Assembly: GCA_002189035.1 (NCBI GenBank)
Contig: NEEC01000021.1
Span: 1,178,001-1,242,000 of the forward strand
DNA length: 64,000 bases
Source: Utricularia gibba
Taxonomy: Eukaryota > Streptophyta > Magnoliopsida > Lamiales > Lentibulariaceae
Direction of reading: 5' to 3'
Shown: positions 8,705 to 38,100 of the stretch, piece by piece
Layout of the letters: each line of letters begins with the position of its first letter
Numbering within the stretch: position 1 is the stretch's first letter
The notes under the pieces: generated by a model
Database searches by the model: none
What the model was told of the DNA's origin: nothing
The model's input: the letters and a program-made list of their open reading frames with translations, nothing else
Translations under genes and position numbers: made by a program

Positions 8705-10036
8705 ATGGAATTCCAAGCGGTGCATTGTTCGCGTTGTTCTAGCCAGTCATCCTTTCCCACTTACCCTCCTCTTCTCAAGCATTCACAATCGCCGTACCGT
8801 CGCCGTCGTCTTCACGGCGGGGCCTCCCTCTACACGGCGGCGGTAAACGCTCGGCGCTCCAGTGGTCTCGATCCTGGAACGGGCGGATATCGAAATCCCG
8901 ATCCCAAATCATCACAAGCGCCTTGACCGCAAGCTTCAATCCATTTTCTGATGAGGATTCACTTCATAAGCAGTGGCAAGGGGGCTTATGCAGGCAGGGG
9001 AGACAGCCTATTGCTCAGTGAAGAAAGCCTTTTCATCGACTGTTTTCATAATCCTTGAACTCCATAGCTTCGCTCTGCAGATGAGGGAGTTTTTGTACTA
9101 CGAAGATCTGCAGGGGATTTTAGCAGTGGTTCAGAAGGAGATCCATGCCTCATTCGTTTGGCTGTTTCAGAAAGTGTTCTCTCATACTCCGACCCTGATG
9201 GTTTATGTCATGATCCTCCTTGCAAATTACGGCGTTTACTCTATGTCCACTCGCGTGGCAGCTTCTCCAGTTCAAGTGCAACAAGTATCTGCTGTGGAAG
9301 ATCAGAAGAATGCAGACCAGGGGATGGACTCATCAACTGTTGCAAAAGCTAGATTCAGCTCCTCCAGTGGTAAGACAATGTCCATAGGAGGAGGTGATGG
9401 TGGTAAATACAGGCCGGTGGCTAGTGATACTGATGGAGATGATGACAGATTCAATGAATCGAATGATTGCCATACAATTGTTCCCAATGAGTCCGTCTCA
9501 TTCTCTGAAGAGTCAAGAGATGGAGCTGATCATGAAACAGTGAAGGGATTAGTGCCTGCTATCAATATCAAAATCGAAACAAGGGATTATTCAACAGAAC
9601 ATTTCAGGACTGAGATGCAGTACCTGATGGAATTGGCTCAAGAGCCTAATAATTCCCTTCTGCTGGCGAACTTCGCTCAGTTTCTGTATTTAGTTGCCAA
9701 GGATTTCGACAGGTACATACCATCTCCCTTTTTGTGCATCCAGAGCAGATTCACACAGCCCTTTCATTAGGAGGAAGTGAGAGTTATACTTGTGCTTGTT
9801 GTTGTAACAGAGCAGAAGAGTATTTCAAGAGAGCCACAGCGATTGAGCCAAAGGATGCAGAAGCATTGAACAAATATGCCAACTTCTTGTGGAAAGTGAA
9901 GAACGAACTCTGTGCAGCTGAGGAGACATTCTTGGAAGCCATCGATATGGAACCACAGAACCCGTTTTATCCGGCAGAGTATGCGCATTTTCTGTGGAAT
10001 ACCGGTGGCGAAGACACTTGCTTCCCTTTGACTTGA
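8705..10036 (+). pseudogene. TPR protein gene with two apparent frame breaks (or sequence errors)
   Basis: Tetratricopeptide-repeat protein of the plant family that includes At2g29670 and At1g07280; its function is not established. The solid part is 8973-9712 spliced to 9811-10036 (GT at 9713, AG at 9809-9810). It includes a hydrophobic segment (TLMVYVMILLANYGVYSM) and two C-terminal TPR-like helices (AEEYFKRATAIEPKDAEALN and the following EETFLEAIDMEPQNP). Upstream, protein-like sequence continues in other frames: DEDSLHKQW lies in the frame that ends at 8976, just before ARGLMQAGE in the next frame, and the plausible ATG at 8705 is in a third frame. Both switches need one extra base. The first lies somewhere in about 8800-8911, the second at GG 8975-8976. 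See the finding on systematic one-base losses: the gene may be intact in the organism. Confidence 0.7.
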
Positions 10037-10668
10037 ACTGATGTATGAACCTGGCTAGTAACTATCACAGAATGAATGATTCTAGAGTACCCAAAATTAC
10101 ATATAATCATGGAAGAAGTGGAAAACAGAGAAGTAACCTGTTAGTGCTTTAAACTCAGCTACTGCTTCCTGCTGGCGTTCTCCAATTGGTCTCTTGGTGC
10201 TTTCTTCCCCTCTCATCCTGGATGCTGTGGTTGTATAGTCTGCCGGCACCAAGGGCGGTTCACCAAGGAGATGAAATAAAGTTCTTATGCCATTTGTTGA
10301 CTCCATTCCTGCTGAGTTATTCAGATGCACCAAAAAAAAAAAAGTAGGGATTGATGATGCAGGTGGCTGAAGGTTCAAATCCCACATGCGATATACTTAG
10401 CCGTAGAGACAGAAACATACCAATAGTCTTCGCATCATGAAAACAGCGTTCAGAATTATAAAACAATTGTTTCTACTCTACACTAGGAGCAAAATCTGAG
10501 TTCTAAAAGCATCCTTGGGTATACCAAGTGGCTGCAGTGGTAGGGATAAAAAGCAAGTTGTTACTACTGAAAATGGGGCGGTTTAGATGAAGAGCTCTCT
10601 GCATCCACACAGCGGAGCTGCAACGGATGCATTACCGCCCCCAGGGAGTTCGATCCAGTGCAAAATTA
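10037..10668. other. intergenic / 3' flanks of convergent genes
   Basis: About 630 bases between the stop of the TPR gene and the stop of the UXT transporter. Both genes end here, so much of it should be 3' untranslated sequence. I see no conserved gene. A GGTTCAAATCCC word at about 10371-10382 resembles a tRNA T-loop but lacks a pairing stem. Confidence 0.5.
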
Positions 10669-12593
10669 TCATGCTTGCAGGTCCTTGTTTGGAATGACTC
10701 CAATTTCAATGCTTAACAGGGGATCTGATTCGCCTTCCTTGGCCTTCAAAAATTGATATTGGTGTGAATTCAAAAGATGAAGTGAATGAGGAATGATTAA
10801 TTGACTACTTACTTGGGATGATAGTTGAGGGGATGCATCGCTGAGAACCTTTTGCTGGCTTTCGGTGGTGCAGTAATAGGAGTATAGTATCATTCCAACT
10901 ACCGCAATCAGGATTCCGAAAATATTTCTCCAGCTGAAGGGGTCTCGGAGAAGAACATAACCAAATGCAAGGACAAGGCATGTTTTCAAATGTCCCAACA
11001 CCTGATAAGTAACTGGAGATGTCTTTCCGATGACCAAAAAGGTGCTGAAGTTAACAGAAACTGATATCAAGCATGATAAAACAATAAATCCCTGCCACAA
11101 AACACGAAATAAGATCACCCAGATTAAGCAGATAACTGGAAGAGTTTTAGTTCTTACCATCACTTGAGGAGTGTAGCTGAAGGCAAAAACATTCTGGTCT
11201 GTCAGAAGCCCATCCACAAAAGGCCCGGTTACGAAAAGAATCAATGTCTGGAAAGGGCAAGATTGATAAAGGAGCTGGGTGGATGAAACCTTGAACTTCT
11301 TCTGTATGGTATTTGTCATCTATATGTTAAAAATACGACAGCATCACACACTGCAATTTAACTACTACTGAGGAAATATGCCAACTAAAAAAAAAAAAAA
11401 AAAGGTGATGCAAGCATATAAAGTTTCATGAAGAGAAGGTTTACGATTTGTGCTACACAAGTTGTGGCAACCGCAAGGAAAGACAATAAGGAACCAAGGG
11501 TATTGAGCTGCAAATCGGTCACCGTAGCAATTCCAACGCCAAGTAGCAGCACAACGAGTGAGAGCTGAACATTCCGACTAAACATAGTGAATAAGAAAAT
11601 ATTAGCAGCAAGGATAACACAAGCGATAGAGCACCACAGAGAAAGGATGTAATCATGTTCAGGCTCAACAAAAATTAAAAAAAATAAAAAAGTGAATTGA
11701 TGCGCTGACCTGAACTTTTTTCTAAGGAACAATGTCTCTAAAATAACTGTGAAGGGGATGATTGCCAACTTGGTCATCTAAAATAATAAGCCATAGAAAC
11801 GATGGTTTTAAAAGGCAGCAACTGAGATAAAAAATAAAGAGCTTCTGACTCCATAAATGCATCACACAGAAATTTATACAAACGAGATGACTTCTGCCTT
11901 ACTGCAACTTATTGCACCAAGAAAAAGAAAAAAAGACATCAGACATGGATTAATTCAGTCGCATACAAGAGAATCAGGAGCATGGTGCTTCACACTGGAT
12001 GCATGAAAGAAAAATTGCTCTTAGGATGTTGACAGTCAATTTTTGTTCTCACAAATGGCAGCAACAAAACAACATAGGATCAGTAGAAACAAGCATGAAA
12101 AACTCTGAAGCACAGACATAACCTTCGAATATGTGAAGGGCTAAAACATTAAGGAATCGAGAAAACAACATTCAACCTGATAAAAACCGACGGAGTTGAA
12201 ACCAAGGCTGAGGTTTAGTAGTCCAATAGATGCGCCATTGAGAATCCCAAATGCCATCACAGTCCTTGGATCAAAAGGCTTATGCTCAAACCATTTCAAC
12301 AATATCGCCAAATGGAGCGAACAAAATGTGACGAGAAGATGCCAACTAGTTAGTGTGGTAGCTGAAAAGATATTAAATGGAACCAAGTCAATCTCAATCG
12401 CATCAACAACTCAGAACAAAACTAACCAGCTACAACTGCACAATTATCACGATTTTAATTCAGAATTTCTCACCAAAAGCGAAGCCAAGTGTGCTAATCA
12501 GAGCCTTGTTGCAAATCACAATCGAAACCGACGAAACCACCGAGAGACTCAACGCTCCGGCAGTCCCAACCGAAACCGCTGCCCCTCACTCAT
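10669..12593 (-). CDS. UXT: UDP-xylose transporter, UXT family (frame break in exon 1)
   Basis: Drug/metabolite-type nucleotide-sugar antiporter of the Golgi/ER, most like Arabidopsis UXT2/UXT3, which supply UDP-xylose for wall polysaccharide synthesis. Seven exons: 12593-12474, 12361-12177, 11777-11710, 11577-11445, 11319-11158, 11091-10813 and 10743-10669. Family blocks are TLTSWHLLVTFCSLH, GLLNLSLGFNSVGFYQ, MTKLAIIPFTVILETLF, TTCVAQI, QLLYQSCPFQ, GKTSPVTYQVLGHLKT and FGYVLLRDPFSWRNI. The total is 1022 nt; one added base gives 341 codons, the family length. The break is in exon 1: MSEGQRFRLG is in one frame and GALSLSVVSSVSIVICNKAL in the next, separated at the CCC run 12565-12567. The last intron (10744-10812) is 69 nt without stops, so it can be retained in frame. 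Confidence 0.9.
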
Positions 12594-13428
12594 CTTCTCT
12601 ATCCTCTCCCAATTCAAAACCTCAAATATCTACTTCTGAGACGCAATCCACGATCCTACACACCATTACAACACCAATGAGTTCTCACAAACGTTACACA
12701 TTCGAGTTCACAGCACATCTCCAGATCAGCTCCCACCGGTACAACCAGAAACCAAATGTCGCATTTCTAAGAAAATTAACAGCAACGAATTTGAAAAAAA
12801 AAAAAAACAAAGCAACGACATGCTAGATCTGGCGCTCTACATAACAATCCATGGACAATCACGCAACGATTTAAAGCTCTACAATCGGAGTACGCAGAAA
12901 AGGATCGAACCTCAAACAGGGACGAAGCATCACTCACTTCGTTGGAGAGAATGCGTTGCATTTGAAGTATCACAAGCAAAACTGAAACGTTCGACAAATT
13001 AATTACTATCCCGTGCGCCTTCCATTTCATAATGAGATTCTAAATCGGGAAGCAGCATTATGTCTGTAACCGCTAAGATTGCAAGATACTACTTATAATT
13101 TAATTCATAATATACTTAAATTATATTAAATTAATATATCAATTTGATAAACATATATTTAAAATAATACTTATTTAATATTTAGAAAACATACTAAAAT
13201 TTATTTACGAAAAACTAGGGAAGAATGAAATTAGGGGTAAGAAATGAATTAATTTTAATATAATTTATAAATTCCAAAAGTGTGAGGGTCAATTATTAAT
13301 AAATTTTCTTCCTCTCTCTTCCAAAACACACACCAAATTATTCTTTTCTTTTGAGTATCCACAAAACCATGGTGATGGATTGTATCTACAAAACCAAACT
13401 AATCACCACAACACCTCCACAATTCCGG
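12594..13428. other. UXT 5' leader/promoter and CLE 3' flank
   Basis: The stretch next to 12593 is GC-moderate and probably holds the UXT 5' untranslated region and promoter. From 13070 to 13330 the sequence is strongly AT-rich. I see no additional gene. Confidence 0.5.
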
Positions 13429-13647
13429 TCAGTTGTGGAGCGGATTCGGGCCGCAAGGCACGAGCCTCTTGGACACCGTATGCGGCTTCTTCTCCGGTTC
13501 CGAGTATCGTCGAGCATCTGAGAGGTATGCATCAAAAGCTAGTCGAAGCCTCTCTTGGTCTCCTGCATTGCTGATTATTTCCCTGCAACAAGTACATGGA
13601 GCCAAAGTGATGAGGAATAGCAAGAACAGGAGAGTTGGAATCCTCAT
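13429..13647 (-). CDS. CLE: CLE peptide hormone precursor (CLE9/10-like, Cys variant)
   Basis: Single-exon secreted precursor of 72 residues. CLE precursors are cleaved to 12-13-residue signalling peptides perceived by LRR receptor kinases (CLV1/BAM families). Residues 1 to about 20 form a hydrophobic signal peptide (MRIPTLLFLLFLITLAPC), followed by a variable acidic/basic middle. The last 12 residues are RLVPCGPNPLHN, ending exactly at the stop. This matches the CLE motif at R1, V3, P4, G6, P7, N8, P9, L10, H11 and N12; Arabidopsis CLE9/10 is RLVPSGPNPLHN. Position 5, normally Ser/Thr, is Cys here. I chose the ATG at 13647 because the signal peptide begins directly there; an in-frame ATG at 13758 would put a non-hydrophobic extension in front. 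Confidence 0.88.
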   Translation of the reverse strand: MRIPTLLFLLFLITLAPCTCCREIISNAGDQERLRLAFDAYLSDARRYSEPEKKPHTVSKRLVPCGPNPLHN

Positions 13648-14963
13648 CCTCGAGTGTTTCAAGCTCAAATGACAAAGAGAGGATCTTTTTAATAGAGAAT
13701 AGGGCGGCTTTGTGAACTTGGCTGCCCACAAAAAGTCATGAGCAAGATTGAGAAGCAACAGTGAGGAAAAAGAAAAGCTTTCATGGTCTGAATTCTAAAA
13801 CCAATTCCTGTGTGTTCCAAGAACAGTTCTATAAGCAAGTGATGCCGTGCTTTGAATAAATTATCAACACCGTTCATTGACTCTGCATATTCCATTCAGA
13901 GTCATCCACCGTGGGATGAAACTCCATGCATCAATCACACATCAAGCAATAGTATGTGAGTCATCCACCCCACTTCTGAAAAAGTCATAGGTCCGAATCC
14001 TAAACACTAAACCATAAAATTCATGTATATATTAACCCAACGGTGAAACATAGTTAGCTAGCTGTGGCATAAGAAGCAAAGAGGTGATCGACTTCAGTGA
14101 CTAAATAAGCCAACTCATTGTATAAAGCAGTGCTTTATCTACAAAGTAAAATATGAATAAACGAGACTCATGTAACAATAAAAATTCCATGTGTCAATTG
14201 AAACACTTCATTGAAAGGGACAAAAAGTAGGTTACAACTATTCAATGATCAGCTAATCTGTCTGAATATTTCCTGTCACGCATTCTACAAATAAAGCAAT
14301 GGGTGCTGCTGCTTTCATTTGCATTCTGCCATCAAATGGCTGCTGCTGCACAATTCTATTAACCATGTGATGTTTTTCTTTTACACGCTATTCAAAAATC
14401 CCCCTCTGTATTTTTTTTTTTTGATCAATCAATCAAAAATCCCTCTTTCTCTCTATGTATATATACACATGATTCCAGATTACAACAAACTAACAAGTAG
14501 GATTGCTGAGAGTTTAAGGTACATTGTGGATTTTATGGATCACATAGAAGAGGCCACCAACCTGGCTTCATTATGATATCCAGATGTGGTGCAAAGGAAA
14601 CATAGAAGTAAGCCGCACATGCAGTCGACACTCGAGAAGTACCTGGATGGACATGAAATCACTTGGAAAATGTGATGCACATCATCAATTCCTACCCACA
14701 CACCATCTTTTATACTCAGCATTTGTTAAGCTTTGCACTTGTTACTCCTCCGTATTTTGTCCTTCCAAGTCTCCCACCAGCCACATCAGATCAATTCAAA
14801 ACTGACTTAGCAGCAAATGAGATACACAAGTGGGAATAACAAACTCCGTATTGATTCCTTTTTCGTCTCTTGAAAATAGTAGAATACCTTAGCATACGGA
14901 TCATTTCCATAGATAAGCTCAACACGTGGAAGATAAAGATGGTCGACGATTTCCCACGCACAT
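13648..14963. other. intergenic, CLE upstream region
   Basis: About 1.3 kb upstream of the CLE gene and downstream of the doubtful small gene. Only scattered short frames without similarity are present. A poly-T tract lies near 14411. Confidence 0.45.
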
Positions 14964-15190
14964 TCAACCATTCCATGCATGAATTAGTACCTGCTGGGAC
15001 ACCAGCAATTCGGACTCCACCCGGTTCATCAAGTCCCTCGTTGCAGGGTCGCCTTGACGTTCATAACCACATATTCAAACATAACATCACTTGTCAAAAG
15101 AAAACTCTCAGGGCCCCAAAAGACAGCAGCTGGGTTTACGAACATCCACCACTCAAGATATGGAACCTTGTTTGAAGAACAACTTGGCAT
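14964..15190 (-). CDS. possible small conserved protein, unassigned, frame uncertain
   Basis: From ATG 15190 a 53-codon frame ends at 15029. Its core, YLEWWMFVNPAAVFWGPES followed by FLLTSDVMFEYVV, is Trp-rich and looks like a real small, possibly organellar, membrane protein. About 15 codons before the stop a second protein-like stretch begins in another frame (RQGDPATRDLMNRVESELLV) and runs to a stop at 14964, with a good donor CAG|GTACT at 14990-14989. One extra base near 15075 would join the two. I do not recognise the family with confidence; a small mitochondrial complex subunit is one guess. Confidence 0.3.
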
Positions 15191-15967
15191 ATCCCAATAG
15201 CAATCCAATACAGTAACACCAAAATACCATCACAACGAATCGGCGCCCTAATCAAGAACAAACCTTGAAACCTAATGAAAAGAAATAACCAAAACAATCA
15301 AATCTTCTTTCTTCCAAACAGAAAGAAACGCCGCCGGGAATGTTCTGAACTCGAGGAACTTCCCTACGCCGGGAATGGTCGCCGTGATTTGGGCCGGACT
15401 TCAAATCACGAATCAGCCCAATGAAAGCATTTTAAAATATAATATCCATTATTATAAAATATATTTCATTTATCAATCTCTAATTTTAAATAATCTATAA
15501 TTCATATTTTATTACTTCTGCTTCTATGTTTTGTCACCTCAAAAAACATACATATTGAATCGTATTTAAAATTCATTCTATTCGATCAATTAACTAAAAA
15601 TTGATCCGATATAATCCGTTTTGAATTCGGATTTTAAATCACATTATAAAATTCGAATTAATTGATATTTAAAATTAATTCTATTCAATCAATTTACGAA
15701 AAATTGATTCGATATAATCGATTTCGAATTCGAATTTTAAAACACGTGATGAATCACGCAAATGAAATGAAAATCCACTAATCTAATAATCAATACATGC
15801 AATCCATTTTTAAATAGACACTTCTTCAACATAACAAGCCGAAAAAGGAAACTTCATGGCGGAGTAGATATTTATACACACAGACTGCAGAACTGGAGGA
15901 GGAGACAGAGGGCACAAGTTGGTGAGTTGTAAGAATGAATCGCTACCTTGATTCCCATCTGGTGGCA
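15191..15967. other. intergenic with a two-copy tandem repeat
   Basis: Contains a probable 5' leader for the small gene (15200-15420, moderately GC-rich), then AT-rich DNA with the tandem repeat listed separately. The last 100 bases are likely the remorin 3' untranslated region. Confidence 0.45.
15551..15747. repeat. two-copy tandem repeat, about 100-bp period
   Basis: Two related segments, 15551-15645 and 15656-15747, share the order ATTTAAAATT...TTCTATTC...ATCAATT...AAAAATTGAT...CGATATAATC...GAATTCG...TTTTAAA. They differ by scattered substitutions. The DNA is AT-rich and non-coding. Confidence 0.65.
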
Positions 15968-16930
15968 TCAGAAGAAAATCAATGATTTCTTAGGAGCTGT
16001 TCCAGTGGCGCGATACTTGGCGGCTGTCTCTTCAGCTTTCAGGAGATCTTCGCCGCGCTTTGCTTCAACGCCTGCTCTCTTCTCTTCTGCAGCTTTGTGC
16101 ACTAGAGCAATTTTGTTCCTCATTCTCTCTACCCACTCTGCCTTCTTCCTCTCCATCATCTCCTGCAGGCACCCAAAACGAGTTTCAGTCGATCGGAAAG
16201 GAAGGTTAATCCTGATTCGGTATGAATGGATTCCCCAGAAATTGAGGATCAGTGAAGGGTGTGGAAAGAAGCTTGAGGTTATTACCTCGATCTTCTTCAG
16301 CTCTGCCTCCAGCTGCGCCTTCTTGCTGTTTTCCCATGCCCCAATGGAAGATAGTTTCTTCTGAGCTCTGGTGACACCAAACTCGTACGTGTATCAAGAG
16401 GTATGTTAAACAGGATCAGGGGAAGAGGATCTAGAGGAAAAAAACTAACTTGTTTTCAGCTTTCGATTTCTCGCTTTCTTCCCATGCTTTGATCAAAGAG
16501 AGTCTCTTTTCGGTTGCTACTCGAGCAAGAAGAGCATCTGCAAGAAGGAGATGAGCATGATCCGGAATCAAGTTAGGTTTTATAGTCAAATCTGGTACCT
16601 CTGTCTAAGCTCCCATCTGGTTTAGTTCCCTCTGCAGGCTCTTCATGAACAAAGAATCACATAGAGACACATGAGCATAAAAGTAGAAAATATTTCTGCA
16701 TCAGATTCAACAACAGGAAGATTACTTTCCACTATGGTAAGAGCTTTGAGGTCATCCGCAGGCTTCTCCTCCGCCGGGCCTGGAACTATCGTTTCCACCT
16801 CCACATCCTTGGGAGCCTCCAGCTTCGGCTTCGTCTCCGACTCGAGCTCTTTCTCTGGCTCCGGTTCAGGGTCTACTTGCTTTGGCTCCGGCAGGGGCTC
16901 TTGTTTCTTTGAGTGCTCCTCCTCCGCCAT
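15968..16930 (-). CDS. REM: remorin (group 1-like)
   Basis: Plant-specific peripheral plasma-membrane protein that organises nanodomains, involved in cell-cell movement and immunity. Exons on the minus strand: 16930-16726, 16640-16599, 16537-16450, 16367-16286 and 16162-15968, giving 203 residues, the usual length. Exon 1 encodes the N-terminal Pro/Glu/Lys-rich region (PEPEPEKELE). The C-terminal remorin domain starts around ARVATEKRLSLIKAWEESEK, continues with WENSKKAQLEAELKKIEE, and forms the predicted coiled coil through ERMRNKIALVHKAAEEKR to AKYRATGTAPKK. The final residues are SLIFF; the Cys usually found at the remorin C-terminal anchor is absent. A TATA-like element lies upstream at about 17024-17033. 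Confidence 0.94.
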
Positions 16931-19184
16931 GACCTCTGCGAGATTAGCTATCTTGAGCGGTAAATCTACACAGAAAAGGCGAACACCCAGTTGCAGAGAC
17001 GGTAAAACAATAACTTTTTTGAGGAGTATATAGACAGACTACAGAGAGAGGAAGCAGCAGAAGCAGAGGCAAGACAATTGACAGAGAAGCGCAAGTTGGT
17101 GAGTGAGGTGTTTACTCGAAAAGGCTACTGTAGCGCTCTCGTCATTTACAAGGAATCCTTGGATTCCCCTTTCTGACAAATCGGGTGAACCAGAAACAGA
17201 CACACTCTTAATCCTAAGGCTTCTGCTTTCAAAAGGGCCGGTCTGAAGCAGATGCACCCTGTCCAAATCTTCCGGTTTTGCAACCCGGTCCACCTCACGG
17301 TTCAAACCGGTGGATTTACGGAAGAGAGCCGTTGGGGTTGTCAAAAACACAAGTAGGCATGGGAGGCGTGGTCCATAATTCCCTCGCTGGCAACTTAAAC
17401 CTTTATGCAATGTGGTCCCACCCAGCAAGTACACCAGAGTGCTTTTCGGTAATTTCACAGCTCACAATTTTATTTTTTATTATAAACTATTTTACTCTTC
17501 ACCATTTTTTATTATTTAAATTCATAAAATAGTTTTTTCTTTTATTTCAAGTAAAATCTTTTTTAAAAAATAAGATCCATTTAAAATTTATACCTAAATT
17601 TCCAATGTTATTAATTTGAGAATTAAATATATATCTATTTCCAACTCTGCATTATTTTGGCATCTCATCAACTAGCAAATTATGGGATTTATTTTACTTC
17701 AAAAAAAATAATAGATGCAAATAAAAAAGAGAAAGTAACTATTATTTTCCTTTTTTTATTCCATAATCCAAGATGCATAATTAATAATTATTTAATATTA
17801 ATATATGAGCATGCCACTTTGACCTAGAACATGTACAATTGATTTGGTGGATTAATGGTGAGTTATCTTGTCAAGACTCACTCCCATCCAATTACCTAAT
17901 CGCATTGAATAGTGTGCATAGAATTCAAACACAATCAATAATTGTGCATCCCTCGCATGCCCATCCCCATTTTTTCTAATGTGAAATGCACCCAGTCAAA
18001 CTTGACGGTACGGAAATAGCTTTGAAATGGTATATTGTGATCCTTATATGTTCAAATGAATTGAAAGATGTCACGTTTGGATCGAAATACGACGTCGTAT
18101 GTCATATTTGTTAACATGGAATGCATGCTTGAGGATATGTCTACTTTATGTTTATTTAATCGTATGGACAAATTTTGAAATTAAATTTAAAAAGAACAAA
18201 AATATATATGAAATTTTGCAATTCAATGAAAAAAATCAGAGATATCAATTTTTACTAGTTTCATGAATCACAATTTTATTAATTTGTTTTTAAAGTTTTC
18301 ATTTACATGAAAATACAATTATATGATTATTATTTTTCAATGTCAATAAAAAAAAAGAATAAATTATTAAAATATCAAATAAGTAATAAAATATATAAGC
18401 TCCACATTTTATGGATAGAATTTATATATCCTAATATTTGATGATATCAAATAACATTATTTAATATTCATAAATCCTATTCATGATTTTAATATATTTA
18501 TATAGTGTTTGATAATATAGTATATAAGATTTATACTCAAATTTACATATTAATTATTATTTGATTAATTAGTATATGTATGTCAATCTTATATTATTAT
18601 ATCACTTATGTACTCATTTTTTGAGTATACGAATGTTATAAATAAATAAAAAGAAGTACTAATTATATCTATAACAAGTCATCTTTTTTGAGATGTTTAA
18701 TAATATAATATAGAAGATCTTAATTACATTATATTTAAGCATATTAATAACTTACGAGCTATGGATTTAATAATATCATAAAACACATTTTTGACATTTT
18801 CAATGTTAAATCACTAATTCAAATTTTATAGTTATTTTTATATAGGAGGGAATCTTATGTAGGTGACATTTTTTTTTCAAAATAATTAAGTTAATACTTT
18901 TTAATGATATATATATATATATATTTTTTTTTTCGTGTTTCGTGAATGTGAAGGCAAACAGTGGGTACCACAGAAGTCTTGAAAATTGGACACGATATTT
19001 CCGGAATTGCTGAAACGACCGTTTGTTTGAATTGCGAGAGTTTCTTCTTCGGCTTCCTGCTCCATTCTGCTTCTTTGCATTTTGTCTCCATGGAAGCGTA
19101 CCTTGATTCTGCAGGATGAAGGAGATTGTGAGGATGCAGTGAAAGGTTGTTCGGCTGTTCTGGGGTACGATTTGATTGTTGAGG
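16931..19184. other. AT-rich intergenic region
   Basis: Remorin promoter at its left end and leader of the GT90 gene at its right end. 17440-18900 is very AT-rich with no coding signal. Two segments beginning near 18503 and 18690 share GTTT(G/A)ATAATATA-like words in direct orientation and may be relics of a small element. Confidence 0.45.
17022..17036 (-). promoter_or_regulatory. putative TATA box of the remorin gene
   Basis: On the minus strand the sequence reads TCTATATACTCC about 95-100 bases upstream of the remorin ATG, a normal TATA-box distance for a plant gene with a short leader. No transcript start is known. Confidence 0.35.
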
Positions 19185-21121: not shown

Positions 21122-21581
21122 TCTGTTTGTCTTGTCGTCAGGATTTAATTGATTGTAAAAAGTATTTTATCGGAAATTATGAGTAAATAAAAAATGTGTT
21201 GAATTTGATTTGAAACATTAATATATATTGATATTTTTCATATTAAAATATATAATTTAACAAAATAAATGTATATATAACACACATATTAAAATAAATG
21301 TATTTTTCCATTAGATTTACAGTGTGTATAGTTTCCCGTTCGATCGATAAGTATGTATTTAGAAATATTAAATTCAATATATTTTCAATTCAAACGAAGA
21401 ATTAAAATTGAATAACACACAAATCGATTCTAAAATAAAAAAAATGAAAAGGATTTAATGGGACATAAATTTAATATTTCCGTACGAAATGAGGCATCCC
21501 CAGGAATAAAATAATAAAAATTATATGAATTTCCCCCGTCGCTTTTATTACCTGAATTTGAGACCACCGACCAATCTCCGG
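21122..21581. other. short intergenic region between convergent genes
   Basis: AT-rich 460-base spacer holding the 3' untranslated regions of the GT90 gene and the PMT gene. No additional gene is visible. Confidence 0.5.
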
Positions 21582-24005
21582 TTACTGCTGATCGGCGGTG
21601 GCTGGCGCCGTCCAGTACGTTTTCACGGCGAACAGGAGCTTCTGTCTATTGAATGGTCCATCTTCGTGATCGATTATCTGGCTGTCCCAATGTAGCCCGT
21701 CGGCGATTTTCTTCGCCTTCACAAGCACATCCACATCGTCTCTGATGATCAAACTTCCCTCCGGCCGAAGAATTCGATCCATTTCCAGCATCAGATCATC
21801 CATTTCGCACCTGTAACGTACGCCGTGAAATGCTGCTTCCTCAGTTTATTTACCGATTGATCAGTTCAGCTCTTCAGGTTTTGCGGATTTACCTGTCTTT
21901 GTACAGGGTGAAAACTAAATCCGCGTGGATTAGATCGTAGGATCTCGGGTACGTTGACATCGCTTCGCACCTGCAGCGTAGTGCGCCAAGTGTTTGATCA
22001 GTTGACTGAAAGAAGATGTAATATGAACTGCTTGCTGCTCTACTGACTGTTACTTACCAGCTGTGGTAAGTTCCGATCAATCCTCTTTCGTAAATGACGC
22101 CTAATGTGTTGATCTTGGCTTCCATTGGAACTACGTTCATAACCCAGAGTGGATCCTCAGCTAAATTTGCAGCAAATCCACCCAAGAACGCGTTCATGTC
22201 AAGGATGTTTCGGTATCTCCCTGCTTGTCCTAGCTGATTGTTAACTGTCTTATAATATGATACTCTCCTTCCCCATAGCTTCATGTCTTGCGCAAATGCA
22301 TCTGATGTTAATCCCTTTACAGTTCCCTGGGTGATCCGCGGCGGAACTGCCGTCAATCGTTTCGGCCATCTTTCTAGCTCACCACCAGCCACCTCCCGCT
22401 CAGCGGCCACTCTAGGTAAGGGTGTTATACATGGTTCCAAGTTGGTGTACCTGCAACAGAGCATCTAGATATGAACGAATCTCTTCGACGAAGAAACTTT
22501 TGATTGTTTGTTGCAGTTCGACTTACCATGCTTTATCAGGATCTTGACTGGTGCTACATATCGGAGGAAGGTTCTTCATCACTTTCTTGCGCTTATTGCA
22601 CTGTAAGTGATTAAGTGGTTTCTGCCATATGGCAATGTCATCCTTCTCCGCCAGTTTCTTCCAACACAGGCTTTTGGTGACATTCTCAATCTGCAGCTGC
22701 TCAGCGTTGAGATCCTCCCTAGTTCGCTCCCACCCTTTCCAGTACTTCCTCCACCGGATTGGTGGACCGGAGAGGATCCAGTACCCCCAGGCCGCAGAAT
22801 CCGATCAACCTCGATCAAATAGACTCCCCCTGCAAAGTGAAAACGTAAGAGTCTCATCCATCTATGCATATCAATATAACTAACAGACTGTGGCTAAGGT
22901 AGGTACCATATTCCCCCAAGGAATCAGGCACCGGGAGCAATGTGCCATGTCGAAAGCGCGAGACGGGTAGGGGAGCCTTTTCGATGCGATAACTCCGATC
23001 AATGCAGGTACCCCCCGTTCCAAAGCGAACTGAACTTGCGCCTCGTGTGTATCCCTCGGCGCAAATGACATTGTAAGAACGTTTCTGGTTAGTAGGTACG
23101 CTCCCCAGCTTGCAACCTGCAAGATTCAGCATCATTCAATGGTTTGATCTAGCATTCCTTTCCCGAGGAAAGTCAGAAGTACGGGGGGGCTTTCCTACAT
23201 CTGTGAGTAAAAGCATCTGGATTTACTCATAATGGAAGCATAGAACAGTGAAAAAAGAAGTTGCAAATGAAGGAATGGTGATGAGTTATCCCAACTGCTG
23301 CGAATACTGAGAATAAAAGGATATGAAGGAAGGTTACCCCACAGCCGGTATCGATGGCGGTTCTGATGGACCCATCTTTCAAGTTGATCAACTTTCCGAT
23401 GTCATCAATGTAAGAATCAGCCCCATTAGGAAACATGGTCCCGCCGCCGGGGAACCTGAGCCGGTCGCCTTCGAAACGGACCCAATTCTGTACAGCTTTC
23501 TCGACAGTGAGATCTTTGTGAGGTACATTAGAGAACCACACCAGATCCCGGCTCGCCGGCCACCGAAACGGGGTTCTGTATCCGTACGGGGCCGGGATTC
23601 GGCACTTGAGCTTCTCCGCGTTGGCAGGGCAATGCCGCTCCCTGTATATCAAACGCTTTCTGGGGAATTTCAGCGAACGGATGGGGTCCTCACATGGAGT
23701 GTACTCAGAGTACTTGATATCGCACGGGGGATACGATTTGACGGCGGACGAGCCGTCTTCCGAGGCCGAATGGTGGCTGGAGAAGTCCAGATTTGGGATA
23801 CTCCGATTCAGCATTGAGGAGGAGACGCTTCCGCGAAACTGTAAACAGGAGGCGGCGGCCGAGGAGTTGACTGTGACACCCCGCCGCCTTTGCGCCAAAC
23901 TCCAAGGAAGTAGCAGATAGAGCAGAGAGCGGCGGCAAGCGCCAGAGAGCAGAGTCCTGGCATCTTGATGAAGGATGCTCGCGGCGCCGCAGACGGGCTT
24001 CCCAT
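21582..24005 (-). CDS. PMT: PMT/QUA2-like Golgi methyltransferase (three frame breaks)
   Basis: Putative pectin methyltransferase (DUF248; QUA2/TSD2 family), a Golgi type II membrane protein using S-adenosylmethionine. Exons: 24005-23338, 23116-22907, 22829-22527, 22450-22058, 21970-21893 and 21810-21582. The anchor is [20 protein letters not shown]. Family blocks are [131 protein letters not shown] and [16 protein letters not shown]. The frame breaks are: in exon 1 between about 23898 and 23815, where the anchor frame runs into a stop; in exon 2 at C5 22913-22917, after which exon 3 needs a different phase; and in exon 3 at C5 22784-22788, immediately after RPGG. Adding one base at each gives 628 codons, the family length. 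Either the sequence has homopolymer errors or the gene is dead. Confidence 0.85.
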
Positions 24006-24109: not shown

Positions 24110-24130
24110 TAGTTATATATATAGATATAG
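24110..24130 (-). promoter_or_regulatory. putative TATA box of the PMT gene
   Basis: The minus strand reads TATATATATA within CTATATCTATATATATAACT, about 110 bases before the PMT ATG. The position is plausible, but such runs are common in AT-rich DNA. Confidence 0.3.
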
Positions 24131-28000: not shown

Positions 28001-28758
28001 TGCTGCAATAGCTGAGCACGCTGAAATGGGGTCATAGCCTGGAAAATCTGTTGTTCTTGCTGTCTTAGCCGGTGCTGCTGTATTAGAGCTTGAAATTGCG
28101 GGTGGGTGCCCTGAAGATTTGAAAACTCCTGTCTATTAGATAACTGCTGCAGAACCTGCTGCTGCAAAATATCTTCATGTTTGATATCCAGATGTGGCTT
28201 CTTTTGTAGATGAGAGAAGGCGGTTGCTTCTTGGATATAGGTGTTAGGCAATCTTCGAGCAGCAGGGTGCTGCCCTTGCCCCATGTTCATCAGTGATGTA
28301 GCACAAGAGTTCCCAAAAGGCTGCTGATTTTGATGATGCTGAGAAACAGGGTCTTGATAGCAGGCTTGTTGTACAACAGAGGACACATCCATGATGGAAG
28401 AGCCAGACATGCTAATGTTGTTAGATGAAAATGATAAGGGTGAGGCTGGCAAACGCATGTATGATTCTGTATTACTGCTAGCACTTCTCTGAAGATGAGG
28501 CCCCCCTGAGAGTCCGGAGTTGGCATCCGTTACCAATGAGCTCGCTCCAACACTGGCCCCAGAGCTTGCCATGCTATTCAAAACTCTGTCTTGGCATATG
28601 CTTCCCTGTGCATGTCCATGTAATGTATTCGTCGAGCTCCCAAAATTAGAGCTCAATTGAGAATTTCCAGCAACTTGCGAATTCCCACCTCCTTGAAAAA
28701 AGATACCAGAACTCGATGACGATTGCTGGATCCCTCCGGCAACACGTGATGGCAACAT
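25031..28758 (-). CDS. SLK: SEUSS-like transcriptional co-repressor (LIM-binding domain)
   Basis: Nuclear adaptor that with LEUNIG-type partners represses floral and embryonic patterning genes. Nine exons: 28758-27850, 27766-27635, 27500-27452, 27169-26955, 26876-26808, 26693-26593, 26396-26303, 26218-26149 and 25899-25031, giving 835 residues with no frame problem. The N-terminal part has SSGIFFQGGG, ASSLVTDANSGLSGGPHLQR and SYMRLPASPLSFSSNNIS, then Gln-rich tracts. The Ldb1/SEUSS conserved domain covers CSRRLMQYLYHEGQRP, YYSPRAKKRWCLSLY, WQCDICGSKSGRGF, VLPRLNEIKFSSGVLDE, EGHLRIIF, LLPRRLVAPQVNQLLQVA and LNDLGFSKRYVRCLQ. The C-terminal part is Ser/Gln-rich and ends in NMSFSWKD. The intron after exon 7 begins with GC (CAG|GCAAGC) instead of GT. 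The ATG at 28758 starts MLPSRVAGG, the family N-terminus. The 5' leader probably reaches about 29400. Confidence 0.93.
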
Positions 28759-30797
28759 GAGGTCCTACTGATTTTACCTTGGTCCTATTATCAGCCCGGT
28801 TGATTATGTCATCCACATTCTGGAATTCCAAAACCTGCTTCCATGGCACTACACAAAAGTACCAATGTACGAAGAGAAATTAAACAAACCTGCGAGCATA
28901 ACCGAACAAAAAACCCAATCTAGGCAAAACAACTAAACACAGATCCATAGAGAGAAAAAAAAAGCCCACTGCAGACGAATTCAAACCGGACTGAACGACA
29001 TTAGGAAAACCATCTTACTATGATTAAAAGATCCGAATCACACACTGCCAACAAACCCTAACTCAGCATCATCCGGTAACCTTCCAGCTTCACACAAACC
29101 GATCAAGCATCAACCCAAAACATAATCAACTAAAATTCAAACTTAACAAGCAATTACGATTCTCAAGAAATCACCCAGAATTGTATCTTACAAAGAAGAG
29201 ATGATCCAACTACCGACTTAGCATCCAATGCCGAATTCAACGAGAAATCACTCCAAACTGAAGGCGCTAAATATGTGGAAGAAGAAAGCGAGACACGGCA
29301 TGGAAGTCCAGCTGAAGAGAAACTGGAAAAAAGAAAGAAACCGTCCTGACGAGAAACTGAGAGCACGGAATTTTGGGATCGGGGTTTTAAAGGAGCTCTC
29401 CGCTCCGTACTTCTTAACATACATTAAATACTCAATAAAAATGATTTTTATTGAATTAAAAAAAGGAGAATAACAAACTAAATTGGTTCAAAAACGAGAA
29501 AATTGATTCTGATTGGTTTAAATTTTTTTAAGAAAATAAAATAATTATAATTTAAAATATGTGAAATCTTTGTAATAAGAAATATTTCTTTTAATATCTT
29601 TTCTAATTACAATTCAAATTTCTTTTAATATTTTGTAATAAAATATATTTTTAACCGAAACAGCCCCAACATGCCGTCCAAGAAAATGGGCCTGATCCCG
29701 CTCCAGATTGCCACAAACAATTGGGGCCGGATGATCCAGCCCGCTTCCGAAACCCGTACCCGTTTCTCATTTAAATAAATAGTTTTAAATTGGAAGGTAG
29801 TTTGGGCTAACGGATTAAAACAACACCTATTTATTAAATTAATCACTTTGGATTCTTTTATTTCATTTGCAATAAATACATTTATTTGCGGCCAATAATT
29901 TTTGGCATGCCACTCTAGTAAATTTCCATTAATATTTTTAATAAAAGTATTATATTATTAAATACAGATTATTTAAGTTTAGAAAACCTAAATTCAAAAG
30001 TCTTTCTTATTAGAATTTATAAATAATCGTCTTTTTTTTATTAGAATTATTACTCAAAAAGTGTTTCTCAAAAATCGTAATCAAATATAATTTAAGTATT
30101 ACAAAAATAATTTTATCATCAAATACAAACAAATGTTACTTCAAATGGAATAAAAATCTAGAAGTATTTTTATTTTTATAAGTTTTAAAGGGTCAACTTC
30201 TGCTTTGTTAGAAACATTTATCAAATTTTTTTTCAAAAAATAGAATTTAATATATATTAAAATTAATTAATGAGAGAAAGTATTTTTATAATGAAATATA
30301 CCTAAATAAAAATGGATTTTAAAAATATGTGGCACTGGTAATTTACTTTATAACTTTAAATTGCATTATTTGTAAATTTAAAAATATTTTAATATGAATT
30401 TCATTAAAATCCTTTTATTATTGTGTGTTTGTTAATAAATGGATTTTATATTTTTAGATTAATTTCGTAAAATAATAATAGCATTAAATGCATCAACTTC
30501 AACGTAGACGGGAACCCTATCGTCGTTCCACCAACTTTTCTCTTGCATTACCTTTTAACAGAGCGCTAGGTGAAGATGGCGACAGAGAACAACAGCTGGC
30601 CTCTCAGTAATCTCTTGTCTCATTTATTGATTGTGTTTGCTTCTTGTTTGTCATTGTTCGACAGCGATTTCAGTCGCTATTTCTCCCATTCACAACCGAA
30701 AGTTTCAATCTTTCTGGTAAGGGTATCCGGTTCCGCACCCGCCGCCGTGGATTCTTGTGACAGCCAATGAATGGGCGGCTGAAATTTTCAACGGTAG
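28759..30797. other. SLK leader/promoter and AT-rich intergenic DNA
   Basis: 28759-29400 is probably the 5' leader of the SEUSS-like gene with at least one leader intron. 29420-30480 is AT-rich without coding signal, apart from a GC-richer patch at 29650-29765 of unknown nature. From 30500 the sequence is the upstream region of the BAG gene. An ATG at 30575 with the short reading MATENNSWPLS before a GT could be an alternative first exon. Confidence 0.45.
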
Positions 30798-31779
30798 ATG
30801 GAGAATAACACGCCCGCCAGGGGCTCCGGCGGAGAGAAGAATTGGGAGCTTCGGCCCGGAGGGATGTGGGTCCAGAAACGCACCGACTCCGTGGAATCAC
30901 CATCGCAGATGATTCGGGTTCGGGTCAAATACGGAGCAGTCTACAATCATGTTTATATCAGCTCACAAGCAACTTTCGGTAACTGCTCTCTGTGAATCGC
31001 TGTAGCTCCAATGCTTTGTGCATTATGAATTTGATTGGGGGTTTGATTTTCAGGGGAGTTGAAGAAGCTGCTGGTTGAGCAAACGGGGCTACAGCATCAG
31101 GATCAGAAGCTGTTTTACAAGAAGAAGGAGAGGGATTCGAAGGCGTTTCTGGACAGTGCAGGGGTTAAGAACAAATCGAAACTGATACTCGAGGAGGATC
31201 CAATCAGCATAGAAAAAAGACAGATACAGGTGAAGAAGATATCACGTGTGAGAATGGAAGTAGATAAGCTTGCTCAGCAGGTGATTGATTCGCTGATCCG
31301 TTCATATATCAAATGCGAGTTTTCATCACATTTTGTGATGATTGGATCAGGTTTCCGAGCTAGAAATGGTGGTTTCTAAAGGGTGTAGTGTAGCTGAAGA
31401 TGATGTCGTCAAACTCACTGATTCACTTATGAATCAGCTTCTTATTCTGGAGAAAGTGTGTGCTAATGGAGATACAGAGCTACAGAGGAAAATGCAGGTG
31501 TGTGTGAGGATTTTGGTTTCTGCAATTTCTTGTCATGATTTTGAACTCCATCCTTTGCAGCTGAAGAGAGTACAGAAGTGCGTTGAGACACTAGATATGC
31601 TGAAGATCAAGAATTCATCTGCAAACAAGAATACTAGTGAGACTCATGAGCAAAATAGGTGTTCAAATGAGGTTTTGATAACCACAAAATGGGAAACTTT
31701 TGATGCTACACCTGTTTCGTTGATGGATGCACCCTCAACATCAACACCTGCTCCTGGTGTTATGTGGAATTTGCTTTGA
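30798..31779 (+). CDS. BAG: BAG family molecular chaperone regulator (ubiquitin-like + BAG domains)
   Basis: Hsp70 nucleotide-exchange co-chaperone of the plant BAG1-4 type. Four exons: 30798-30978, 31054-31280, 31351-31497 and 31561-31779, giving 257 residues. Residues about 20-115 form the ubiquitin-like domain (WELRPGGMWVQKR, MIRVRVKYGAVYNHVYI, ELKKLLVEQTGL, QKLFYKKKERDS). The BAG domain helices follow from SRVRMEVDKLAQQVSELEMV through DSLMNQLLILEKVCANGDTE to RVQKCVETLDMLK. The tail is Ser/Thr-rich and ends GVMWNLL. All junctions are GT-AG and in frame. The start at 30798 is the first ATG of this open frame. Confidence 0.92.
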
Positions 31780-32092
31780 GTTGCCCTCCTGCACAATCAT
31801 ATTCTTTGCTGTATCTAAATTTGGTTTTCATCTTTTTTTCAATGAGCATTGTACTTGTTCTACAAAATGTAGCATAATTGTGGAATGCATTAAAGACCAC
31901 ATGATAATGCGAAGTCAACTCTTGAACTGACATTGATCTTGATCTGATACCGCATAGATGAGCAACAAAACCAGTTCCAGACAGAAACCCAATAAAAAGG
32001 GCAAAAACTACCAGCACCAAAATGGGAAGATTCATAGAACAAAAGTCAACTACAAGTGAAACGCAGAGGATGGAAGGACTGCTTGATAAATT

Positions 32093-33741
32093 CTATTTCG
32101 TCTTCTTGGTGAGAGCAGAGGTCCTGAATTCACAGTCGTCTCTAGCAAAGCTCCACCACAGATAGGTAAGAGGGATGGTGGTTGCGTGCCATAAAGCATG
32201 AGCATCGACAATGCCCCAGTAGGGAGGGAAATCATAAATCTCAAGGAGCATTGCAAGAGCACCTCCAAATATAACGAACCACAACTTCCAACGTGAAGGG
32301 TGACGAGTGGCACCAGCCCAGACAGCCCACAAGATCATCTGCAGGATCCCCATTGCCACGCAGACTTTCATGTTCCATCCTAAAAGGATTCACTTGTCAG
32401 TCTGATTGTTAAAGCAAGATGATAAAGTGCACAAGATAAGATGTATGGTGTCTTGCCAGCTCAAATATTTATACTATTTGATGCTAGAAGGACTAACCGT
32501 AATCAAAACGGAAGAAGTTCAGGTACAAAATGTGTGTTGTCACAAAAGCAAACACAGGAGCAGCAACCATGACCCTAGTAGCCTCAATCTTTACGCTGTA
32601 AACTCTTATTATAGCAAGAAAGAGCGAGTAACCGAGAAAAGCTATAGCTGATGAGTAATCAAGCCTCTCAGTTTGCTCAATATCTCTGCATATGGTCATG
32701 GGTATTCAATTAGATTATGGATAGGGATAAAGAAGAACAAAGTGATTTCATGTTGGCAAGTACATATACTGACCGAGTGTGGAAAACTACACTCCAGAGC
32801 CATGAATTCATCGCAAATATTGAATATATGTACCACAAGCCAGTGTATTCGTAATATGTCCTCTTATTTGGTCTGACTGGTAGTTTGGAATTTGCAAGGA
32901 AGTAAAAGGACACCAATCCATGAAATTGCATACTGAGATTGATAGCAGAGAAACCCACAGATGCTGGTTCCTGATCGCATTATATAACTCTTATCAGAAC
33001 AAAACAGAACCGATTGTGAGTTAAGGTGCCATCCCAGTTGCTCTTACCTGCAATCCAAATAAGCGCTTGAATGGCCATTTCCCATGGTATTTGTTGGGCT
33101 TGTATCCAAGCTTCTGCCTTTCTTCTTCTCTAGAAAGCATGCATTCGTACTGGCAGTTGCTACGGCAGTCCCACTGCTTCCAACGCAAATACAATGGCTC
33201 TTGTAGATGCTTACTATCATCAACTGAATTCCCATCCAACGAAAAATCACACCCGGTCTTCTCACAATGTTCAACGCAAGCCCTAGATAGAGTCAAAAGG
33301 ATATAGTTCAGTGACCCACATGAAAAAGGAAGTGGGAGAAGCACGCGCAAATTCTGAGACGCCTGTTAACTGTTCACACAAATTGCACATCAAGAAACAA
33401 CGCAAGATCTGAATTTCCTGGAAACTACGCTACGAACTAACATCCCAAGTCCAGCCTTAAGAATACGGTTGGCAATGTGAGCACTCTTCAGAATCCCTAG
33501 CATTCCGAAGCAATCAGCAACCACAAACTAACTAAACATTCATCAATCAAGAATCCAAACGGTACCTTTTCAAACAAAAATACCCAACACAAAAGGCAAA
33601 AAACTTCAACTTAACAACCAAACCATAAGAGGTTGAAGAATCTAACCTGTAAACGGGATCAGCATCACCAGGACTACCATAAATCACTGCGAAAGAACAA
33701 AAAAATGCGCCCCACAAAAGGAGGAACGAACTCCGATCCAT
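32093..33741 (-). CDS. PGAP3: PGAP3/Per1-like GPI-anchor remodelling protein
   Basis: Multipass ER/Golgi membrane protein of the Per1 family, which removes a fatty acid from GPI anchors (phospholipase A2 activity inferred for the family; CREST superfamily). Five exons: 33741-33647, 33282-33048, 32970-32774, 32685-32498 and 32379-32093, giving 333 residues. An N-terminal signal peptide (SSFLLLWGAFFCSFAVIYG) is followed by a Cys-rich lumenal domain (ACVEHCEKTGCDF, WDCRSNCQYECM), the HGKWPFKRLFGLQEPASV block, and seven or so hydrophobic helices. Conserved membrane residues include NSWLWSVVFHTRD and GIVDAHALWHATTIPLTYLWW, the His/Asp motif typical of the superfamily. A hAT-type element is inserted about 120 bases upstream of the ATG. 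Confidence 0.94.
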
Positions 33742-33853
33742 TAAAATGAGAGGAGAGCCAAAAACTGATGAGGGTTCACAAGGAACTCCGACTCCTACTC
33801 CACGGTCCGTCAATGGATCTGCCTGCGCTATCCTGTTCAATTGAGGAAGCTGT

Positions 33854-34392
33854 CACAAACCCAGTGTTTTAAAATGGGTTAAATACATTGAACCATTTTA
33901 TTATGATGTTAGGTTGAATCCTTTTTAAAATGGATTGAATCGGATTCATTAAATTTTAATTATATTTAGTAAAATATTAAAATATAATTATAAAATCACA
34001 CTTTAATGTATAAAAATATTGAAAATATACAAAATTAGGTATATATACATAAACAATTGATACAATTACATTAAACATTTTAATCATTCAATATCTCATT
34101 CAAATAGTATATAATCTAAATATAAATGAATATTTTTTACTATCAATATGAATACATATATAAAAATATAATTATTAAGATTTAATCAATATATATATAT
34201 ATATATCAAATATTTATAATATATCTTATATTTGCTATTGATTATCTTCAGAATATATATATTTAAAAATTAAAAAAAAAAGAAATTAAAAGGAAAAGAA
34301 TTGAATTAGATACAACCTATGAAAATATGGATTCGTACCTAACTGGATCAAACCATGGGTCGAATCCATGATTTTAAAACACTGCACAAACC
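33854..34392. mobile_element. non-autonomous hAT-type transposon (MITE), complete
   Basis: The element body is 33862-34384 (523 bp). Both ends carry a perfect 14-bp terminal inverted repeat (CAGTGTTTTAAAAT inward from each end). It is flanked by an exact 8-bp direct duplication CACAAACC at 33854-33861 and 34385-34392. An 8-bp target duplication with CA-starting ends is the signature of the hAT superfamily. The interior is AT-rich with partial sub-terminal inverted similarity (GGTT..GAATCC words) and no transposase coding. It lies between PGAP3 (divergent, ATG at 33741) and the U2AF gene. Confidence 0.9.
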
Positions 34393-35153
34393 TCATAAGA
34401 GGAAAATATATGTGGTACATTATGCCAAGCCTACCCCTAATTAGGCTTTTTTTAAATCTGCCCAAAATCCCAATTTAATCATAATTTTTTATTTTTAAAC
34501 ATTTCTATCAAATAGGTTTTTTTATTGATTCAAATGATTATATCCACTAAATAAATACGTCATTGTAAATAAATATTTATTTTATAGTATATATAAATTC
34601 AACTAATTTAAATTATATTTATTTTTATTTTCACGTTTGAACATAAGAACCCGTAAAGCACACAGGCCCAATAGATAGTATTAGTGGACAAGTGCCTCGC
34701 ACGTGCTTTGCGCCCTCTTATTCGGCCCGTATATAAGCCCATTAATTGGCCCAAACTTGGAAGTATAAGTACAATACCATGAAGGAAAGAAAATTGAACT
34801 CGAAAAAAAAAAAAAAAACGCAACTTCTGAGGGTTAGCGACCGTCTTGCGAATCGAATCTGCATCTGCGCCGGGAATTTCAGTCGGAACGGTGATTTCTC
34901 CTTTTGAGCTTCTTTGTGTTTTGTTTTACGAGTACGAGAGTGGATCTGTGATAGTTTGGAGGATTCATGGTGCTTTTCTGAAGACGTCTTTTTGTAGGGC
35001 TGAGATAGAGTTCATGCCTTCCATTTTTTATCTATTTGGATTTTAATTCTGTATCTTTTTCTTCATGACTGTAAAATACACTTGCAAAGTCAAGTTTCTT
35101 TTATTTATTTTAGTAGTTTTGGTAGCGCTAATGCTGGTTTGGCTGTTCTTAAG
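34393..35153. other. U2AF promoter and leader with intron
   Basis: AT-rich DNA followed by the probable promoter near 34700-34760 and a leader of the U2AF gene. The run from 34820 to about 34900 is GC-richer and likely the first untranslated exon, with an intron before the coding exon. Confidence 0.45.
34662..34755 (+). promoter_or_regulatory. U2AF core promoter candidate: TATA box plus GGCCCA-type elements
   Basis: GTATATAAG at about 34729-34737 is a good TATA box. It is surrounded by AGGCCCA (34664), CGGCCC (34724), AGCCCA (34736) and GGCCCA (34749) words, the site II-like elements common upstream of plant housekeeping genes. Confidence 0.45.
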
Positions 35154-38100
35154 ATGTCAACGGGCGATGTTGATGGCAATGGATACGCATATTCTCCTTC
35201 TGGGGTGCAGTCACCTGGTCTAGCTGCCACACAGCAATCACTCAAGGTTTCATCTGGTTCAGGCTCCAGGGTATGTTGCATTCTTATACTTGCTGTGATG
35301 GATGCTTTCTATGCTATTTGTATTATTTTACCATAGTGGAATACCCAAATTCTGTAATCCTTAATGCTGATGTGTAGAGTCTCTGACTTACAGCGTGTGA
35401 CTTTGTTGAACAGTTGCTTGTTTTTATTGCGATAAATCAGCCTATATGCTGTTTTCTGATGATTCTTCAACGTGGGATTCATTTATAATATGTTGTGTTG
35501 AGTTAAAACTATTTGATTCTATTAATGTGATATTCTTCAGCATCGCCATGATGAGAAGGATAGAGATAGAGATAATGAGAAAGAGAGTGATTCCTCAAGA
35601 AGCAGGGATAAGGAAAAGGAAAGAGGTCGAGAGAGAGAAAGAGAGGTGGATAGATATAAAGAGCGAGATAGAGTGAGAGACAGAGACCGGGAAAGAGACA
35701 GAGTTAGAGAAAAAGATAGGGATCGTGATAATGACAGGGATAGCCACCATTATGACCGTCATAGAGAGCGAGGTGATCGAAGAGACAAGGAGAAGATAAG
35801 AACTAAGGATGATGAGGAGGAGGAGGAGTACCACAGAAGCCGAGATCGTAGCAGGTTAGAAATACTTCCTTTTGCTACTCTTGGAAACAATAATTCCTGA
35901 AATAAAATTATTAATATTTTCATTTGAGTGAATAAATCTCAATATCCAATGCAACTTAGTAACCATGGCACTGTGTTTCAGGCGCAGGGAATATGAAAGA
36001 GAAAGAGAGGATAGGCACAGACACGGGTCCAGATCAAGGTCAAAGCCCCGCTCTGAGCATAGGTCTAGGTCAAGGTCTCGTTCGCGCTCAAAAAGGTAGT
36101 TCACTTCTATTCCTTGAAGTATAAATTATGAGTCATCACGCTTTTGTTTCCAATATTTGAGTTATTAGTAAGTATTGTTTTAGCTGATACATTTTCCTTG
36201 GAAGAATTGTCCTAATAATTATAGTTGGTTTCTGATAATTTTATTTTTACCTGACAGCAAAAGGGCAAGTGGTTTTGACATGGCACCTGTTGATGCGGTC
36301 CTCCCCACTGCTGCTGGTGTAACGGGTAATATTTACTGAGTTCTTTCACCATTTCCACTAAGATTTTATTTTTGATGGTTTTGGTAGTACACGGTTATGA
36401 TTGTTAAGCATGCCTGCCTTCTTCAACTTGCCTGTTTAACAGTATGGAGCTTGTCTGTTTCTTGAATACAATTATTTCTTGATTCTGAAACTGAGAGGGC
36501 TTTCCTTTCTTGTTGTGTTTGGTGTTTGTTTGTTGTTTTGTATGTCCTGTCTTGTAACTAAGAAGGCAATATTGGGCTACTTGCCCGATTATGCTGACAC
36601 TGGGCGTGAGCCGACATCTGTTGCTTTTATGTACAAGGAAGAATCAATACAGGTCTTGTTCATCTTCAACCAGGAATTGCGTGCATGGTAGTTTTTACGG
36701 ATACTTTTGAAACATCTTGCAGTATATAAAAAATGAATAAATAAATTAATGGTTTCCTTGGGCTTAAAAAAGAATATATCATGTTTGAATGTTTTATGGA
36801 TACTTTTCAAATAACATCTCTTCATGAGGGAAAAGTTCATTTTTAGGAATTCCTAAAATGTGATTATTGAGAAACTAATAGCTCTCGTGGTTTCTCATGC
36901 TTAATCATTTTTTTATATTTCATGAACACAGGTCAGCTGCTTGGGACTCCTGCTATCGCTGGGATGTTCCAAAATGTGCTACCCTTGGCAGCTGGACAGG
37001 TTTCTTTTCTGAAACTAAGTCAATTTTATTCTCTGATGCAATTTTTTTTAATTATAAATCTCGCTGCATGGCAGTTTCAAACACTCCCTGTTATGCCTGT
37101 CCAAGCCATGACCCAGCAGGTTGGTTTCAATCTTTGCGCCGTTTTTAATGCGGCCCTTTTTTTGAGTCGTGTGTTTTGTTTCCAGGCTACAAGGCATGCC
37201 CGGAGAGTTTATGTTGGGGGCTCCCCCAACTGCGACTGAACAAGTAATGTGATTCATCTTTTGTCTTTTTAATTTTTATGGCTTGACCAATGGGGATTTT
37301 GTGAAGGATTCTGCTGAAACATGTGTTTTGGAAATTCTGTTCCTAACGTGGGTTTAATTTTCTTTCCCTTTAGATTGTTTGGGCCTACCTGCTGGTTTTT
37401 CTTCTGTCGTAAAGATTATCTCTCTTCATGAAAGGCCTTAACTTCCTATTTCCTTAGTAATTGTAACATACCTTTACTTGTTCTCCTTCATATTTGAATC
37501 ATGTATAAAATTTTTTATTCTCACGTTCATTGCAATACTCCTTATGTTTGCAAAGCTTATTGACTGATTTTTAGTAACACTTTTCCCGTTGCAGTCTGTT
37601 GCTACATTCTTCAATCACGTCATGTCAGCAATTGGAGGGAATACTGCTGGTCCAGGTTAGTGAAGGATGCAGTTGTAAATGTTTGTTGAATTTTCTTTCC
37701 CTCTAGATTTTTTTTTGAACAATTTATTAAGATTTTCATCGAATTTTTCCACTTGATTTCAGGCGATGCAGTTGTTAATGTTTATATTAATCATGAAAAG
37801 AAGTTTGCATTTGTGGAGGTGAGATCTGTGGAGGAGGCTAGCAATGCTATGGCTTTAGATGGGATTATTTTTGAGGTAAGGAGATGCCATAAACAGCATG
37901 TGCACTACTTTTGGCTCCACTTCAAATTGTCTCAGGTTATACGCACAATGCACAATATAGCGTCTTGTTACAAAAAAAAATGCATTTCCAGGGTGGACCT
38001 GTCAAAGTGAGAAGACCTAGTGATTATAACCCTTCTCTGGCGGCAGCCCTTGGTCCTAGTCAACCGAATCCGAATTTAAATCTTGCTGCTGTTGGATTAA

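Follow-up and report, generated by a model that had tools for sequence, protein, structure and literature searches.

Deletions at runs of 2–8 bases, most commonly at runs of 4–5, are a known error of long-read assemblies (Kastor; PMC12007338). They cause frameshifts that resemble pseudogenes, as do the breaks that we describe here from Utricularia gibba, but they were reported for small genomes and chiefly for nanopore data, with A/T runs dominating, whereas G/C runs dominate in U. gibba. Another described case is Enterococcus faecium ATCC 700221. Short reads revealed that 561 single-base deletions in homopolymers, or one per 5.7 kb, had remained in its genome (about 3.2 Mb) after assembly with HGAP and Quiver (PMC4888979). 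The same pipeline is reported for U. gibba: its published assembly was built with HGAP from 88x PacBio coverage, with a contig N50 of 3.4 Mb (PMC5793159), and totals 100.689 Mb (PMC6258962). Both organisms show one-base homopolymer deletions, and the frequency in E. faecium is of the same order as the rate that we found for coding sequence in U. gibba (about one per 3.6 kb). In E. faecium, short reads removed over 90% of the deletions, whereas in U. gibba we infer them from reading frames and related copies only. The breaks can also be compared to fractionation after whole-genome duplication, which likewise gives a broken copy plus an intact duplicate. Unlike fractionation, however, we saw no stops and no decay, and selection was not relaxed in PMT, the broken copy that we tested.

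We analyzed a stretch of 64,000 nucleotides (C321:1178001-1242000), which we call the window; all positions are those of the window unless a contig is given. Relatives of the window's genes were located by protein searches across the assembly (100.09 Mb in 516 contigs). To find breaks, we used a purpose-written protein-to-DNA aligner that permits frameshifts and GT-AG introns. As a second check, we aligned the DNA of the window's genes to that of their duplicate copies.

A sequence-only reading of the window had proposed seven one-base losses in four genes. The breaks are indeed present in the sequence as given, and the window total is seven firm one-base losses, no gains, and one weak candidate (in the leader of the TPR-like gene). 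The distribution differs from the proposal in that U2AF has two losses instead of one and the TPR-like gene has one that is firm. The features are:

8705..10030, + strand: TPR-like gene with two exons; its C-terminal part matches Pfam TPR models
8756..8759, + strand: possible second break in the TPR-like gene, in the variable leader
8980..8984, + strand: firm loss in the TPR-like gene; G5 run, one base short in alignments to the C1 copy
10849..12593, - strand: UXT, a gene of the UDP-xylose transporter type, TPT family (Pfam TPT, 1.7e-18)
12565..12567, - strand (CCC on the + strand): loss in UXT; G3 run near the start codon, one base short relative to the C328 copy
14848..15148, - strand: two open frames proposed as a small gene, with no family and no relative; excluded from the count
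21612..23996, - strand: PMT, a putative SAM-dependent methyltransferase with six exons (Pfam Methyltransf_29)
23879..23882, - strand (CCCC on the + strand): first loss in PMT; G4 run, one base short (DNA alignment and protein-to-DNA aligner)
23011..23016, - strand: G6 run in PMT, in frame (DNA alignment with the C1 copy)
22913..22917, - strand (CCCCC on the + strand): second loss in PMT; G5 run, one base short (DNA alignment and protein-to-DNA aligner)
22784..22788, - strand (CCCCC on the + strand): third loss in PMT; G5 run, one base short (DNA alignment and protein-to-DNA aligner)
37087..38438, + strand: analyzed part (RRM exons) of a U2AF large-subunit gene (Pfam RRM_1)
37216..37220, + strand: first loss in U2AF; G5 run, one base short (C213 copy)
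37223..37227, + strand: second loss in U2AF, overlooked in the sequence-only reading; C5 run, one base short (C213 copy)

At all of the firm sites, a related copy is intact: the duplicates of PMT (C1:3013603-3015938 and upstream) and of the TPR-like gene (C1:3003769-3005128), the second copy of U2AF (C213:1583987-1585129), and the relative of UXT on C328. As had been claimed, every firm event is a loss and never a gain, and every one lies in a G or C run (of 3–5 bases). We found no internal stop codon in any of the broken genes, and their introns keep GT-AG. Homopolymer lengths across the window had no clear cut-off, and there was no baseline to compare them with. Three tandem beta-glucosidase genes in the window are unbroken (48726-51251 on the - strand, and 59748-62154 and 62706-63902 on the + strand). 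The last of these is cut by the end of the window.

For PMT, three losses had been proposed, and both methods recover all three. The DNA alignment to the copy on C1 has three single gaps, all of them in the window's copy and all in G runs. Not all of the runs are short, as the G6 run is in frame. Between the two copies, dS is 0.51 and dN is 0.056 (dN/dS = 0.111). Downstream of the last break, dN/dS is 0.085, and amino-acid changes are balanced across the two lineages (14 versus 11). The window's copy is still under purifying selection past the last break. A gene that had long been broken would show relaxed selection, stops, and a mixture of insertions and deletions, and we see none of these.

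For the U2AF gene, a single insertion had been proposed, but this would not restore the frame. The intact copy on C213 carries one extra base at both the G run and the C run, which are 7 bases apart, and the phase of the next exon fits only if both bases are added (a net deficit of two). The break at 37216-37220 that had been noted does exist. The accompanying argument, that U2AF is essential and so unlikely to decay, proves little because there is an intact second copy.

For the TPR-like gene, the protein search located the duplicate at C1:3004135-3005128. We tried frameshift costs of 8–20, and the break at 8980-8984 (GGGGG) was stable across this range. So, one of the two losses that had been proposed for this gene is firm, but it lies at 8980-8984 and not at 8975-8976. 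The other, near the start, is seen only at a low frameshift cost: the candidate at 8756-8759 is called at costs of 8–12 and is absent at 15–20, and the leader is poorly conserved. For UXT, the only relatives are older ones (on C328, C505, and C213), and comparison with the relative on C328 bears out the one loss that had been proposed at 12565-12567. The name UXT refers to the UDP-xylose transporter (Pfam TPT) and not to the prefoldin with the same name.

A possible eighth loss, in a small gene near 15075, is not supported. The peptide has no match to a Pfam family and no other match in the genome, and the minus-strand frames are offset by one extra base rather than by one missing base. This pair of open frames is at most a candidate gene.

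As controls, we used 31 genes from outside the window, with 46.9 kb of coding sequence. These are relatives of the window's genes together with HSP70 genes (the PMT, UXT, TPR, and HSP70 families). They were picked by family and not by the presence of breaks, and the reference for each gene was its best relative. Eleven of the 31 genes were affected, with 13 one-base losses and no gains, or about one loss per 3.6 kb of coding sequence (0.28 per kb). Losses thus outnumber gains by 13 to 0 outside the window and by 7 to 0 among the firm events within it. No internal stop codon was found in the controls; a single stop was flagged, and its alignment ends 15 bases away. One of the 13 losses (C213:593379) is at the end of an alignment and may be spurious.

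To see where losses would fall by chance, we simulated 1,500 random losses and processed them like the observed ones. All 13 of the control losses could be placed in G/C runs of at least two bases, versus 41% of simulated losses (p = 8e-6), and 8 of 13 could be placed in G/C runs of at least three bases, versus 10.6% of simulated losses (p = 1.3e-5). A few of the losses could be placed only in a run of two bases. For A/T runs, there was no clear excess of control losses over simulated losses. Overall, the losses are located in homopolymers well beyond chance (p about 1e-5).

The losses are also spread over the assembly irrespective of gene function. Contigs with breaks in control genes include C1, C2, C142, C255, C304, C451, and C496, and breaks also affect genes for cytosolic HSP70 and actin. 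The motif VAPPERKYS is invariant in actins; in one actin gene on C1, there is a C6 run at 8287628 where this motif needs C7. In searches for essential families, Prp8 (PROCN) and the best match to Rpb2 were unbroken. A CCT chaperonin-family gene (C412:1903409-1903719) is in two frames that are 14 bases apart, which is too close for an intron, and the offset fits one lost base. This is likely a further error of the homopolymer-loss kind.

We noticed near-exact duplicates between small and large contigs (C241:11334-19737 and C304:2234323-2238962; C187:7500-12400 and C4:3366534-3371434), so the assembly contains redundant contigs. Over 4.9 kb, C187 and C4 differ by a single SNP and a single indel in an A run. 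C241 is nearly identical to C304 for its first 3.2 kb, and the two are divergent beyond that. We compared both pairs for errors, but they had too few differences in G/C runs to be informative. One break in an HSP70 gene is common to C241 and C304, which were probably built from the same reads. For C377 and C321:856190, equal match scores are the sole sign of redundancy.

We propose, with a probability of roughly 0.94, that the breaks in the window are consensus errors of the long-read assembly. Short runs of G or C (about 3 to 7 bases) would be called one base short, at a low and steady rate across the whole genome, and in the living plant the genes that carry the breaks are most likely intact. 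Homopolymer under-calling was also the explanation given in the sequence-only reading. As it predicts, unrelated genes elsewhere in the assembly carry the same breaks, which are always losses and lie in G/C runs, while stops are absent and selection is normal. We infer that the cause lies in base calling or in the consensus. The description of the assembly as "unpolished" was probably too strong, since the published assembly was made with HGAP (PMC5793159) and HGAP/Quiver keeps such deletions (PMC4888979).

Some observations count against consensus error. One error per 3.6 kb is more than we would expect from a published assembly that was polished at 88x coverage. Also, all of the broken genes have relatives in a much-duplicated genome, so the loss of a spare copy would be tolerable. 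Finally, the four genes in the window have about 1.5 breaks per kb, or around five times the rate in the control genes, but they were picked because they were broken.

This fivefold difference might suggest a local defect in quality, such as low coverage on this part of C321. A local defect would add to consensus error rather than contradict it, but we consider it unlikely. Besides the way the four genes were selected, the beta-glucosidase genes in the same window are clean, and the other contigs listed above have breaks too. Furthermore, if we assume that the window has 20–25 kb of coding sequence, then the control rate of 0.28 per kb predicts 6–7 breaks.

Alternatively, the broken genes could be true pseudogenes: spare copies from whole-genome duplication that are dying via real one-base deletions in G/C runs. 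The genome does contain duplicate segments, and U2AF, PMT, and the TPR-like gene have second copies. The TPR-like gene and PMT are about 9 kb apart on C1, within a duplicated segment (C1:3002635-3017435) that has them in the same order as in the window. Between these two genes, the C1 segment has no DNA similarity to UXT, which appears to have been lost from it. As no UXT was found in the part of the duplicate segment that was sequenced, genes are indeed lost after duplication in this genome. But the broken genes themselves do not look like pseudogenes. They have no in-frame stops, no damage to splice sites, and no mixture of insertions and deletions, and all of the losses are in G/C runs. In PMT, selection is not relaxed overall or past the last break, and both copies are changing in a balanced way. 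The same breaks affect actin and cytosolic HSP70. It is also improbable that one otherwise perfect gene would have three very recent deletions while another gene has two within 12 bases. Overall, true pseudogenes are a very unlikely explanation. If the short runs are nevertheless real, then one-base deletions in G/C runs would be silencing spare copies on a large scale in this small-genome plant, in an ongoing process that is too recent for other damage to have accumulated; we see very little chance of this.

Programmed frameshifting or insertion editing could rescue the frames in the cell, and the frames do pick up at exactly the family length past each break, but this is extremely improbable, as the sites have no motif in common except the G/C run, the duplicates or relatives of the same genes manage without it, many unrelated nuclear genes would need it, and we know of no such system in plant nuclei.

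The frame breaks are almost certainly an ordinary artefact and not a real biological feature. The artefact can be measured: false frameshifts occur about once in every 3.6 kb of coding sequence, and roughly a third of the genes that we sampled are affected. The published truncation of DCL3 has been checked with RNA-seq and 5' RACE (PMC8333044). The Dicer-dimerisation domain has just three matches in the genome (C244:2027168, C3:1250835, and C255:2646411), which accords with the published DCL3, one of four Dicer-like genes, being without that part. Gene loss and genome shrinkage are topics for which this genome is used as a model, and claims of gene loss need support from reads. Where this assembly has a gene annotated as truncated or missing, the reads should be consulted before the annotation is given biological meaning.
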